Assembly: GCF_001422985.1 (NCBI RefSeq)
Contig: NZ_LMNL01000012.1
Location: 127,096-191,095, forward strand
DNA: 64,000 nt
Source: Methylobacterium sp. Leaf117
GTDB taxonomy: Bacteria > Pseudomonadota > Alphaproteobacteria > Rhizobiales > Beijerinckiaceae
Direction: 5' to 3'
How positions within the stretch are numbered: the stretch's first letter is position 1; each line of letters starts with the position of its first letter. The translations under genes and the position numbers were made by a program. The notes beneath the pieces were generated by a model that was not told the DNA's origin, did no database searches, and worked only from the letters and a program-made list of their open reading frames with translations. Shown here piece by piece: positions 9,621 to 13,668 of the stretch.

Positions 9621-10427
9621 TCAGAACACCTCGTCGGTGTGAACGTCGAAGCGGGCGAGGTGCGCGTAGCCGAAGTTGGTGGTGATCGCCACGTCGGTGG
9701 CATCGCGGCCGCGCGCCATCACGATCCGGCCGATGCGCGGCGTGTTGTGGCGGGCGTCAAAGGTATACCAATTGCCGTCGAGATAAGCCTCGAACCAGGC
9801 CGAGAAATCCATCGGATCGGGCACGGGCGGAATGCCGATGTCGCCGAGATAGCCGGTGCAGTAGCGCGCCGGGATGTTCATGCACCGGCAGAACGCGACG
9901 GCCAGATGCGCAAAATCGCGGCAGACGCCCTGGCGTTGCATGAAACCGTCCCAGGCGGTTCGGGTGGCGTCGGCGCACATGTAGTCGAATCGGATGCGGT
10001 CATGGACGTAATCGCAGATCGCCTGGACGCGACCCCAGCCCATGGGCGTTCCGCCGAACAGCGACCACGCGGTTTCGGACAGCTTGTCGGTGTCGCAGTA
10101 GCGGCTCCCCAGGAGGTAGACGAGCACCTCGTGGGGGAGATTCTGGACCTCGATCTGCTGCGCATGCGGGGCGTAGACGTCGGGCAGGCCGGAATCCTGG
10201 ACCACGAAATCGGCCGAGATCGTGAGGCGTCCGGGGGGCGTGACGATGCGGGTGCAGATATTGTCGAAGTCGTCTCGGTATTCCTGCCAGGGGATCGGAG
10301 GATCGAAGTTGATCACATGCGGGGTGAGCACATCCGGCATCCGTGAGGGATGCACGCTCAACGCGAGGATCATGGGCGTCGGCTGAACCGATTCGAAGGC
10401 AATGTCGAACCCAGTCCTGATCTTCAT
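9621..10427 (-). CDS. Transglutaminase-like cysteine protease family protein
   Basis: About 268 residues. The C-terminal half is a transglutaminase-like (papain-fold) domain with the catalytic Cys in RQGVCRDFAHLA, the His in WYTFDARHN, and a following Asp-rich strand. The N-terminal half is the beta domain common to bacterial members. There is no signal peptide, so it is probably cytoplasmic. Members may act as peptidases or amidases; no substrate is known. The ATG at 10427 is preferred over a GTG nine bases upstream. A second, longer relative lies just upstream on the same strand. Confidence 0.87.
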   Translation of the reverse strand: MKIRTGFDIAFESVQPTPMILALSVHPSRMPDVLTPHVINFDPPIPWQEYRDDFDNICTRIVTPPGRLTISADFVVQDSGLPDVYAPHAQQIEVQNLPHEVLVYLLGSRYCDTDKLSETAWSLFGGTPMGWGRVQAICDYVHDRIRFDYMCADATRTAWDGFMQRQGVCRDFAHLAVAFCRCMNIPARYCTGYLGDIGIPPVPDPMDFSAWFEAYLDGNWYTFDARHNTPRIGRIVMARGRDATDVAITTNFGYAHLARFDVHTDEVF

Positions 10428-10502
10428 GACAACCACCCGATCCTGTCGTGAACTATACGCTCTATGGTTCCAAACCGGGCAGCCTGGGGCGCACCCGGTC
10501 CT

Positions 10503-11441
10503 TCAACGCGCCACCTGCGGATCGGTCGCCCAAGGCTCCACGGCACTCGGCACGACTTCATCGACGTGGACGCTCACCGTCATGCCCAGATCATCCGCCG
10601 GAAACCCGAAGAACGACCCGTGCAGCGGCACGGCCTGACGCGGATCGCGTGCGACGGCGACGCGGATCAGGTCGCGATTTCCGACGATGCCGTTCGTCGG
10701 ATCGAACTCGATCCACCCCGCACCAGGCAGGTAGACCTGCACCCAAGCATGAGTCGAGCCACCACCCACATGCCGGTCGCGATCCCCGCGTGGGTTGTAG
10801 AGGTAGCCCGAGACGAAGCGGGCCGCCATGCCGAGGGCGCGCACGGCCTCGATCATCAACACCGCGAAATCGCGGCAGCTGCCGCGCTTGAGCCGCAGGG
10901 TGGTGACCGGGTCCTGCACGCCCTTCTCGGAGCGCGCCAGATACGCGAAGTTGCGTCGGACGCTGCGCGTCATCTCGGCTAGGAGGTCCTGGGTTCCGAT
11001 CCGTCCCGCCGGGGGGACGAAGCTGCGCGCCCAGCTATCGACCTCGTTGCGCGGGTCCGCGTATTGCCGCTCCATCGAGCGGCTGAGATCGGGGATGTCG
11101 TCGGCGCCGTAGCCGAACGGATAGAACGCCGCGTGCGGCGCGATCGGGAAGATCGGAGTCAGCTCGGGCGTGTGATCGAGGGTGATGGTGCACTCGAAGG
11201 TGAGCTGCGCCGCCCGCCCGGTGAACGACGCGACGGCCACGCAATTCCCGAAGACGTCATGGAGCCAGCGCAGCCCGCTCGGTTCCGGCGTGATCTTCAG
11301 GTTCGCCGAGATCAGGCGCTGATCGTAACTGTCGCGCGGCCGGAACAGGATGCGATGCTCACCGAAGGCCACCGGCTGTCGATAGCGATAGATGGTCAGG
11401 TGGCGGACGGACAGGATCGGCAAGGCGAGGGGCTCCACCAC
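10503..11441 (-). CDS. Transglutaminase family protein with N-terminal bacterial transglutaminase-like domain
   Basis: About 312 residues starting at GTG. The N-terminal 100 residues match the bacterial transglutaminase-like N-terminal region (SVRHLTIYRYRQPVAFGEHR); the C-terminal part carries the catalytic Cys in KRGSCRDFAVLMIEA, the His in GGSTHAWVQVYLPG and the Asp in WIEFDPTNG. It is not secreted. Such genes often occur in pairs, as here with 9621-10427, which starts 75 bases downstream. It lies 70 bases after the NepR-receiver gene on the same strand, so co-transcription is possible. The exact GTG used is uncertain because two adjacent GTG codons are present. Confidence 0.87.
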   Translation of the reverse strand: MVEPLALPILSVRHLTIYRYRQPVAFGEHRILFRPRDSYDQRLISANLKITPEPSGLRWLHDVFGNCVAVASFTGRAAQLTFECTITLDHTPELTPIFPIAPHAAFYPFGYGADDIPDLSRSMERQYADPRNEVDSWARSFVPPAGRIGTQDLLAEMTRSVRRNFAYLARSEKGVQDPVTTLRLKRGSCRDFAVLMIEAVRALGMAARFVSGYLYNPRGDRDRHVGGGSTHAWVQVYLPGAGWIEFDPTNGIVGNRDLIRVAVARDPRQAVPLHGSFFGFPADDLGMTVSVHVDEVVPSAVEPWATDPQVAR

Positions 11442-11511: not shown

Positions 11512-12123
11512 TCAGGAAATGATGGGTTGCGGGGTGCTGGTCGCGAGATCGGCCTCGGTCAGCAGATCGAAGGGCCGCCACGGCTTCGGAATGAAGACCG
11601 CCTGGTCCGGCAGGCTGCTCGGACGCTCGGCCTTTCCGCCCGACGTCACCACCACACGGGCGGACGGCCACAGCAGCGCGATGGCGGAGGCCAGTTGCAC
11701 CCCATCCATCGCCCCGGCAAGGCTGACATCGGCGAAGACCAGGGCGACATCGCCGCCGCGCTCGCGCATGACGTTGAGGGCGGCCTCGGCGCTATCGCAC
11801 CCGAGCACGCCGAGTTCGGTATCGCTCAGGAGGGCCTCGGCCAGCGCGCGCGTGGCGGCATCGTCCTCGACCACCAGGGCGAGCTTGAGCGGCTGCGGCT
11901 TGGCCCGGGGCGCCGCTTCGGAGGCGGCCGCAGGTTCGGACTGAACCTGGCGAATCAGTGAGGCGAGGTGGTCGGGAATGCCCTCGGCGATCAGGTCGTC
12001 GTAGAACGAGGCCAGAGCCTGACCGATCCGGTCGAGGGACAGGCTCGGCGTCAGCGTGTCGCCGAGAGGAATCCGGCTCACGGACGACGAGCGATCCGCG
12101 TTGGTGCCTTTCGGGTCCGACAA
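11512..12123 (-). CDS. NepR-like anti-sigma domain fused to a response-regulator receiver
   Basis: A 203-residue protein. Residues about 29-62 (DRIGQALASFYDDLIAEGIP then DHLASLIRQV) fit the NepR anti-sigma signature IGxxLxxxYDDxxxExIPDxxxxLIxQ. After an Ala/Pro linker, residues about 78-195 form a receiver domain: acidic pair in VVEDDAATR, phosphoacceptor Asp in FADVSLAG, Thr in VVVTSGG and Lys in FIPKPW. In the alphaproteobacterial general stress response, NepR sequesters the sigma factor EcfG and is displaced by phosphorylated PhyR. Fusing NepR to a receiver could let phosphorylation act directly on the anti-sigma domain. The start is TTG at 12123, supported by GGAGG seven bases upstream. 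Domain calls are from motifs; the regulatory role is inferred. Confidence 0.85.
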   Translation of the reverse strand: MSDPKGTNADRSSSVSRIPLGDTLTPSLSLDRIGQALASFYDDLIAEGIPDHLASLIRQVQSEPAAASEAAPRAKPQPLKLALVVEDDAATRALAEALLSDTELGVLGCDSAEAALNVMRERGGDVALVFADVSLAGAMDGVQLASAIALLWPSARVVVTSGGKAERPSSLPDQAVFIPKPWRPFDLLTEADLATSTPQPIIS

Positions 12124-12247
12124 GCAGGGCCTCCGCCGTTGGTGTCTCGGTGCGCCGCCACGAGCGGAGGCGCCGACATTAAAGCCCGGAGGTGACAGTC
12201 AGTTGCCGGAAATCATCCCTGGCCTGCGTTTGAGCCGGTACGGTGCC

Positions 12248-13447
12248 TCAATCCACCGCCGCATCGGCATAGGCCAGCACGCCGGCCATGGAGCGGACGT
12301 CGCGATAGCGGGCGCCGCGGGTGCTCATCATGGTCTCGAACTTCTCGTGCACCTGGGCCACCGACAGGCTCGCCGCCTTGCGACGCCCGCGCTGGGCGGC
12401 GAAGAAGATTGTCTTGTTGGCGCGCGCCGGGCCCGGCAGCATCTGGGCGGCCGCCGCCTTCGGCTTGTCGACCACCGTGGCAAGGAAGTCCTCGGCATCG
12501 TCCGGCCCGAGGAAGTGGGCGAGGTAGACCTCGCCGAGGGTGAGTTCGCGGCCGATCCGCAGGGCGATGCGGGCGGCGTCGCGCTTCAGCATCTCGCCGG
12601 CGAGCAGGGCGGACAGGTAGGGGTCGCGCCGCATCTCGAGGATGCGCGTGCGCTCGGCCGGGTCCGACACGGTGGGCCGGCCGTTGTCGCCGGTGACCAC
12701 GAGGGCCGCATCGGTGGCGAGACCGTATTTCGGTCCGAAGTCGCGCACCACGCCCAACCAGGTCCGCTCGATGAACTGGAACAGGCCGGTGGCCGAGGAG
12801 GTCTGTGCCTGCACTTCGGTCTTGAAGCTGGATTCCTTGTCGGCCACCGCCATCAGCAGCACCGGATCGGTCTGCACCGCCTGCGCCGCCCGGACGATCT
12901 TCTGCACGAGGTGTCGCCGGATCTTCATCGGGCCGAACTCGATGACCTCGTTCGGGTCGCCGATCGAACTCTCGGTGAGGAGGTAGTCATAGGACACCCG
13001 GTCGACCGCGTTGGAGCCGAGTTCGGTGTCGAGGTCGTGGACCGGCGCGAAGGCCGAGGACGCGGTGATCGCCGCCGGGGTGGGCGACACGGAGGCGGGC
13101 AGGGTGGCCGAGGCGGAGGCCTGAAAGATGACCGGCATCGGCTGGACGCGGGGGCGCGGCATCGCGATCTCGGTCATGGCCTGGGCCGACTGGACGACAC
13201 CGGCCTCCGGACCGACGCCGTAGGACAGGACCGCGCCGAGGCCGCCGGCCAGGAGCAGCATCGAGAGCACCGAGCGGGTCAGGGCCGGGCGGCTGCCGTG
13301 ATCGTGGCCGACGCGTCCCGACAGGGTCAGCGCTTCGGAGCCGTCCGGCGCTGCGACGGAGCCGAAGCGCGGTGCGAGCGATCCTTTATGAGCCTGCGAG
13401 TTCTTGGCGAAGACGGTCCGCGACGATCCGACGTTTCGACCCTGCAT
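12248..13447 (-). CDS. Lytic transglycosylase domain protein, membrane-anchored
   Basis: About 399 residues. A basic cytoplasmic N-terminus (about 55 residues) leads to one membrane helix (SVLSMLLLAGGLGAVLSYGVG), an Ala/Pro/Ser linker, and a C-terminal SLT-type domain with the catalytic Glu in VADKESSFKTEV and the ATGLFQFIERTWL motif. Such enzymes cleave the MurNAc-GlcNAc bond in peptidoglycan with formation of an anhydro sugar. The ATG at 13447 (MQGRNVGS) is preferred over more distant in-frame starts that run toward tRNA-His. It is upstream of the NepR-receiver gene on the same strand, separated by about 124 bases. Confidence 0.83.
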   Translation of the reverse strand: MQGRNVGSSRTVFAKNSQAHKGSLAPRFGSVAAPDGSEALTLSGRVGHDHGSRPALTRSVLSMLLLAGGLGAVLSYGVGPEAGVVQSAQAMTEIAMPRPRVQPMPVIFQASASATLPASVSPTPAAITASSAFAPVHDLDTELGSNAVDRVSYDYLLTESSIGDPNEVIEFGPMKIRRHLVQKIVRAAQAVQTDPVLLMAVADKESSFKTEVQAQTSSATGLFQFIERTWLGVVRDFGPKYGLATDAALVVTGDNGRPTVSDPAERTRILEMRRDPYLSALLAGEMLKRDAARIALRIGRELTLGEVYLAHFLGPDDAEDFLATVVDKPKAAAAQMLPGPARANKTIFFAAQRGRRKAASLSVAQVHEKFETMMSTRGARYRDVRSMAGVLAYADAAVD

Positions 13448-13668
13448 CTGCTCGACCCAACCTCGTTCCCTGACCTGGATTGAGATTAGCTTGCGAGATG
13501 TGGCGACAACACGGCCCAGTTTGGGGCAATCCCGTGGCAAGTTTGTCTCAGTGTCGAGAGCGCTGGCGCACACCCCGGCACGTTTCGGGCGCGCCGCGCA
13601 AAAGTGGGACTTAAACGCGAAAAGCGGCCCTGCTCACGCACGACCGCCCGACACTTCGATTCACAGAA

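Follow-up and report, generated by a model that had tools for sequence, protein, structure and literature searches.

Within the window analyzed here (the whole 64,000-nucleotide stretch of DNA from Methylobacterium sp. Leaf117), we find a gene that joins a segment resembling the anti-sigma factor NepR to a receiver domain, and this NepR–receiver fusion, NepR-REC, is real, genus-wide, and under selection. Full-length matches, and thus further proteins of the NepR-plus-receiver kind that a first-pass annotation of this DNA had proposed listing, occur in 90 of 111 Methylobacterium genomes (E ≤ 6.7e-75), with E86, D87, D132, T160, and K180 all present in 90/90 orthologues, the window gene included. 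That annotation knew of no described example of such a protein, and we likewise found no description of a NepR–receiver fusion in the full text of open-licence papers. The gene, its parts, and its surroundings are located in Table 1.

Table 1. Positions in the window of the NepR-REC gene, its parts, and neighboring features.
Feature	Position	Strand	Basis or remark
NepR-REC gene	11512..12123	minus	203 aa, TTG start; homologues start at same place
NepR-like segment, residues 27–61	11941..12045	minus	PF18557, profile–profile comparison, conservation, dN/dS, AlphaFold pLDDT 53–61
Variable linker, residues 62–79	11887..11940	minus	dN/dS 0.21–0.97; AlphaFold pLDDT <50 at residues 61–72
Receiver domain, residues 80–196 (E86/D87, D132, T160, K180)	11536..11886	minus	PF00072, alignment, fold
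Asp132 codon, predicted phosphoacceptor	11728..11730	minus	sequence and alignment
GGAGG ribosome-binding site, 6 nt 5' of TTG	12130..12134	minus	sequence
Promoter-like element GCAAC-N17-CTTT, GCAACTGACTGTCACCTCCGGGCTTT	12181..12206	minus	sole window match, 0.12 expected
SLT lytic transglycosylase-like gene, upstream neighbor	12248..13573	minus	PF01464; synteny
Bacterial transglutaminase-like gene TG1, downstream neighbor	10503..11441	minus	PF08379, PF01841
Second downstream transglutaminase-like gene TG2	9621..10436	minus	PF01841; synteny

The open reading frame, its TTG start, and the preceding GGAGG are as the first-pass annotation had placed them, and its reading of a NepR-like motif joined to a full receiver holds as well: PF18557 matches at residues 31–59 and PF00072 (Response_reg) at residues 83–167 (38.7 bits, Pfam cut-off 30.2), with the Asp, Thr, and Lys of the receiver in place. 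Its further suggestion that the TTG start points to controlled low expression is unsupported, because homologues also start with Met (the start residue varies among M, L, or V, as the sources give them). In the AlphaFold model of the window protein, most of the receiver has pLDDT >90 and the NtrX receiver is matched with a TM-score of 0.84 by target length, while the NepR-like segment forms two predicted helices (residues 31–46 and 52–58) at low confidence (pLDDT 53–61); judging from the model, such low-confidence helices are what a segment that folds on its partner would be expected to show. We note that in strain AMS5 (P0141, L204) the listed protein is 173 aa long, its start being assigned to an internal Met immediately ahead of the IG motif, and that the receiver is the sole domain in the precomputed Pfam list of P0141, which together may explain how the NepR part has escaped notice.

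With E ≤ 0.001 as the threshold, 259 homologous proteins were found. Among the 120 of them that are listed, all that carry an organism name are from Methylobacterium; the prevailing annotations are "response regulator", "CheY-like chemotaxis protein", and hypothetical protein, and one UniRef entry is named "NepR family anti-sigma factor". When 37 of the 120 listed homologues (of 259 found) are aligned, the NepR segment is nearly constant and the N-terminus and linker are variable, and the codon comparison agrees, with the NepR segment giving the lowest dN/dS of the four parts of the gene in 3/3 groups. The values, which are sums over non-independent pairs, are 0.11 for the NepR segment, 0.15 for the receiver, 0.48 for the linker, and 0.46 for the N-terminus in the window gene and its seven nearest relatives; 0.04, 0.08, 0.21, and 0.24, respectively, in eight members of an AMS5-like group; and 0.20, 0.32, 0.97, and 0.45 in 13 orthologues with a decayed receiver (pseudo-receiver orthologues, see below). 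Searches of the family (199 genomes, 43 genera, E ≤ 1e-50) and of the order (297 genomes, 122 genera, E ≤ 1e-38) gave matches in Methylobacterium alone, at thresholds that fusions of independent origin would escape. A search with the region alone gave 20 proteins of 196–220 residues, from Methylobacterium wherever named, and no receiver appears in the precomputed Pfam lists of these 20. Methylobacterium also contains a second family (type 2), in which the NepR-like N-terminus preceding the receiver is more degenerate (profile probability 93%; 15.7 bits against Pfam in the one member scanned). This family is represented by 13 rows (L082–L089, L092–L094, L035, and L036, with L035 and L086, whose contigs are equally long, probably one locus), in 3 of which D87 is replaced by Ala.

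Twenty-one genomes lack a full-length match, and 14 of these have an orthologue in which the NepR segment is retained and the phosphoacceptor is gone. All but one of these 14 genes were located through the adjoining transglutaminase-like gene, the last (in G002) through a profile search; the alignment, profile–profile comparison, dN/dS, position counts, and tree cover the 13 genomes other than G002, whose gene resembles the rest by eye except that T160 is replaced by Val. Across the 13, D132 is replaced by Gly and T160 by Ala in every case, K180 is absent from every one, and the acidic pair has become G-(D/E). In three pseudo-receiver orthologues scanned against Pfam, no receiver was found and PF18557 scored 28.9, 25.7, and 18.8 bits (cut-off 25.7). 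In the AlphaFold model of one pseudo-receiver orthologue, which is of moderate confidence (mean pLDDT 67.6), the fold is still receiver-like, with the NtrX receiver as the best match (E 1.5e-4), and the NepR part is a single long helix (residues 21–62) rather than two. The 13 form one clade with support of 1.0, their closest neighbor being a member whose receiver is intact (support 0.73), in a tree whose root fell within the type-2 rows and not within the main or pseudo-receiver rows, and which is used for the pseudo-receiver group only. Several of these proteins, in M. aquaticum, M. tarhaniae, and M. nonmethylotrophicum, bear the NCBI name "NepR family anti-sigma factor". That the receiver chemistry has been lost and the NepR segment nevertheless retained indicates that the NepR segment is what selection keeps. 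In the remaining genomes (G030, G032, G036, G050, G051, and the fragmented G073 and G078) we found no orthologue, only other receivers, and the first five of these seven carry type-2 paralogues. In G032, a 116-aa frame (L166:4347-4697) lies between the transglycosylase and transglutaminase-like genes and has no match to the family model.

How closely the N-terminal segment resembles NepR depends on the model that is used. The first-pass annotation had proposed a check against the NepR family profile, and the outcome is divided: PF18557 matches the whole protein at residues 31–59 with 23.9 bits (E 3.3e-5) and so falls short of the curated cut-off, 25.7, which is passed when the N-terminal 76 residues are scanned alone (26.1 bits) and in a six-frame search of the host genome (26.7 bits). 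The NCBIfam NepR equivalog NF051865 is not reached, at 12.1 bits for the N-terminus versus a cut-off of 100. In profile–profile comparison with 28 standalone NepR segments from 12 genomes, the main family (81 unique segments after removal of duplicates from 90, as also for the position counts) gives a probability of 95.8% and the pseudo-receiver segments (13 used) one of 96.6%, and the score is reached by 0/200 column shuffles in either case; the segments for this comparison and for the position counts were excised by a motif pattern, which biases them toward the motif, and the Pfam results are independent of that pattern. The slight shortfall of the whole-protein Pfam score is what could still speak for a chance similarity or a plain linker. 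We regard this as very improbable and reject it, because the segment is kept across the genus, has a dN/dS of 0.04–0.20, and outscores the column shuffles; a plain linker in particular is excluded because no part of the gene is better conserved and because the segment persists in the genomes with a decayed receiver, and PF18557 reaches or passes its cut-off in two of the three pseudo-receiver orthologues scanned. The alternative that the first-pass annotation had raised, a degenerate docking helix, may still hold as regards the partner. As judged from these sequence comparisons, the N-terminal resemblance to NepR is not due to chance.

The loss of Arg38, the shortfall against NF051865, and the lack of a sigma-EcfG promoter (see below) all speak against a simple copy of NepR. 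The two-helix motif of NepR (PF18557) is recognizable and its hydrophobic helix positions 33, 37, 41, 53, 56, and 60 are retained in NepR-REC, but the near-invariant Arg38 of NepR and its Pro48 are absent. Position 38 is Arg in 27/28 standalone NepR segments and Ala in 81/81 unique NepR-REC segments as well as in 13/13 pseudo-receiver segments; Pro48 is replaced by Gly in the main family and mostly by Ala in the pseudo-receiver segments; and position 58 has become Arg in 78/81 and 13/13 of the two sets, respectively. Position 52 of the pseudo-receiver segments is Arg, as in 23/28 standalone NepRs. The changes at positions 38, 48, and 58 indicate that the binding surface differs from that of NepR.

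In the described pathway, kinase input reaches sigma-EcfG via PhyR, and Methylobacterium carries unusually many sigma-EcfG copies. NepR itself is a short separate protein encoded beside phyR, with a strict sigma-EcfG promoter at the best NepR of each genome checked (12/12), whereas NepR-REC is a 203-aa fusion behind a different promoter-like element. PhyR likewise has a receiver joined to a component of this partner switch, but it carries the sigma-like domain where NepR-REC carries the NepR-like side, and the PhyR model NF006623 gives NepR-REC 14.4 bits versus a cut-off of 240, mainly through the receiver (residues 69–184, profile positions 127–241 of 258), compared with 364 bits for the true PhyR of the host genome. 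A NepR-like segment is also found in fused form, in the same genus, in Methylobacteriaceae sigma-EcfG proteins with a NepR-like N-terminal extension, described in M. extorquens in the available text of PMC4814048. There the fusion is to the sigma factor, however, and in 20 such frames, assigned to that kind by length, position 38 is Arg (18) or Gln (2), where NepR-REC has Ala. Two further response regulators, Pseudomonas aeruginosa HsbR and Shewanella CrsR, likewise carry an anti-sigma module and work in a partner switch, as far as PMC6482189 describes them in the part available, but they combine a receiver with a PP2C phosphatase and a GHKL kinase/anti-sigma domain and act on RpoS, thus using another module and another sigma factor. 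CstR of M. extorquens was considered as a possible identity for NepR-REC and rejected, as it is a single-domain receiver encoded by 381 nt in the accessible part of PMC13344952 and thus too short.

M. extorquens AM1 also provides experimental data on diverged NepR-like proteins that stand beside the canonical one, namely, META1p1275, META1p2700, and META2p0735, for which a receiver is absent from the main text of PMC4814048 (0 occurrences of "receiver" or "fused"). According to the available text of that paper, META1p1275 and META2p0735 co-precipitate PhyR and META1p2700 does not; a two-hybrid assay with six sigma-EcfG proteins shows no contact for any of the three; and the authors suggest that such homologues are anti-anti-anti-sigma factors. 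We consider the odds about even that META1p2700 is the M. extorquens orthologue of NepR-REC. NepR-REC lies at 2.65 Mb in the AMS5 chromosome, and in 5/5 related genomes searched, the NepR-like loci comprise NepR-REC, a canonical NepR, a single short and diverged paralogue, and longer frames; position and gene count together suggest META1p2700, given that AM1 gene labels presumably run at about one per kilobase. A putative sigma-EcfG promoter is reported for META1p2700 in the text of PMC4814048, whereas we did not find the strict sigma-EcfG consensus upstream of NepR-REC in AM1 relatives. A locus-tag search of the literature found META tags in PMC4814048 only. Should META1p2700 be the orthologue, then its similarity to NepR had been noticed as early as 2016, and initial tests, in which META1p2700 showed neither PhyR co-immunoprecipitation nor an overexpression phenotype, gave negative results, with phosphorylation state not set in the experiments as described in the available text (PMC4814048).

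The genomic surroundings of NepR-REC are conserved. All 89 main-family loci other than the window itself have the transglycosylase-like gene upstream in the same orientation, and 70 of the 89 have a transglutaminase-like gene downstream; the other 19 show none within the stretch covered. The pseudo-receiver genes likewise adjoin these transglutaminase-like genes. Among their loci, the transglycosylase gene is seen in 9/14; in most of the rest the sequence ends too early to show it, and at L157 there are 2.7 kb of upstream sequence with no transglycosylase match. No phyR, nepR, or sigma-EcfG gene adjoins NepR-REC. The comparison with the canonical nepR–phyR locus that the first-pass annotation had called for places that pair approximately 54 kb away on the same contig (85 kb, versus 139 kb for NepR-REC), and the host genome further contains two diverged short NepR-like frames besides the canonical nepR. 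Its sigma-EcfG-like genes whose N-terminus resembles NepR number at least five. This genome also encodes a single-domain receiver akin to that of NepR-REC (L080:6040-6480), some 2.6 kb away from its canonical nepR–phyR pair. Diverged short NepR-like genes occur elsewhere in the genus as well (L002, L008, L101, L102, L104–L106, L116, L118, L124, L237–L239, L245, and L247), and a strict sigma-EcfG promoter is found at 1/15 of them, the other 14 being without one.

Upstream of the gene, GCAAC is found 95–235 nt before the IG codons in 87/90 main-family loci, and in 86 of those 87 exactly 17 nt separate it from a following C[ATG]T[TC] (counts at the remaining spacer lengths between 10 and 25 are 0–9), where the C[ATG]T[TC] box was defined after inspecting the sequences and the orthologues share ancestry; shuffling gives an expectation of 0.3/90 for the narrower C[TG]T[TC], as a rough control only. 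The GCAAC-N17-C[ATG]T[TC] element looks like the promoter of an extracytoplasmic-function sigma factor, and GCAAC differs by one base from the sigma-EcfG −35 box GGAAC. A canonical sigma-EcfG promoter can be rejected: among 115 upstream regions, taken from 89 rows of the main family, 13 of the pseudo-receiver group, and 13 of type 2, the strict consensus occurs in a single one versus 1.3 expected, and GGAAC-N16,17-CGTT in 0/90 main-family loci. Genome-wide, exact matches to GCAAC-N17-CTTT number 15, versus 28 for the reversed control, which gives no sign of a large regulon; this test is narrow, given that orthologues differ in the second base of their −10-like box. The GCAAC form is found upstream of 0/13 pseudo-receiver genes, 10/13 of which have GAAAC-N17-[CT]T[TA][AT] upstream (a count without a chance control).

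Taking these observations together, we tentatively propose, at rather less than even probability, that NepR-REC is a phosphorylation-gated NepR decoy that acts on the PhyR/sigma-EcfG switch. Phosphorylation of Asp132 by a kinase would expose or hide the NepR-like segment; once freed, the segment would occupy the sigma-like domain of PhyR; and with PhyR so occupied, the true NepR would be free to hold sigma-EcfG, such that the stress response would be damped, with the partner, the direction of the switch, and the damping all being inferred. In the 14 pseudo-receiver genomes, the protein would be constitutive or controlled only via its expression. We prefer PhyR over a sigma-EcfG as the putative partner by analogy, because two of the three diverged M. 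extorquens NepR homologues co-precipitated PhyR and none made contact with a sigma-EcfG. Arguing against a PhyR decoy are the loss of Arg38, the full-length Pfam score below cut-off, the failure of NF051865, the 0/90 count for the sigma-EcfG consensus promoter, and the AlphaFold model of a pseudo-receiver orthologue with one long helix instead of two; if META1p2700 is the orthologue, its negative results would add to these.

The same loss of Arg38 weighs on the possibility that NepR-REC is a true anti-sigma factor, binding a sigma-EcfG paralogue directly, with receiver phosphorylation releasing or strengthening its grip without PhyR, which was the main idea of the first-pass annotation. We consider this unlikely: the retained hydrophobic helix positions and the presence of at least five sigma-EcfG-like genes in the host genome would fit it, but the three diverged M. 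extorquens homologues made 0 contacts with six sigma-EcfG proteins in the two-hybrid data of PMC4814048, as far as its available text goes. The NepR helices may instead now serve a new partner that has no part in the general stress response, such as the neighboring cell-wall functions or an unrelated sigma factor, in which case the resemblance would reflect ancestry and not function. The family-wide changes at positions 38, 48, and 58, the absence of an adjoining phyR, nepR, or sigma-EcfG gene next to a lytic transglycosylase gene that is upstream in every locus counted, and the promoter-like element unlike the canonical stress promoter all point in this direction, and yet it is doubtful, given that gene neighbors need not share function and that the pseudo-receiver orthologues are nearer to standalone NepR in both profile probability and Arg52.

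Finally, the protein could serve mainly as a phosphate sink, or as a response regulator of single-domain type, with the NepR segment merely tethering it to PhyR and its kinases. Single-domain receivers do act in the alphaproteobacterial stress response, as described in the available parts of PMC5964349 and PMC13344952, and the receiver is intact in 90/90 orthologues; however, the phosphoacceptor is gone in 14 genomes, and in the 13 tested the gene is still under purifying selection (dN/dS 0.32 for the receiver and 0.20 for the NepR segment), which makes such a role improbable.

In terms of its sequence, NepR-REC would add to a known kind of regulator, the partner-switch regulators, with its mechanism put forward as a proposal. 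A conserved NepR–receiver fusion would give a second, PhyR-independent entry point into the general stress response, or a brake on PhyR that is set by phosphorylation, and a sensor kinase would likely tune the general stress response through NepR-REC. The broader picture, which we hold to be somewhat short of an even chance, is that the anti-sigma side of the alphaproteobacterial stress switch has been turned into a response regulator, the mirror image of PhyR, through which a second kinase input would set the stress threshold, and that one clade has cut the phosphorylation wire and kept the NepR output. The pseudo-receiver lineage thus offers a ready comparison between switchable and unswitchable forms of the protein.
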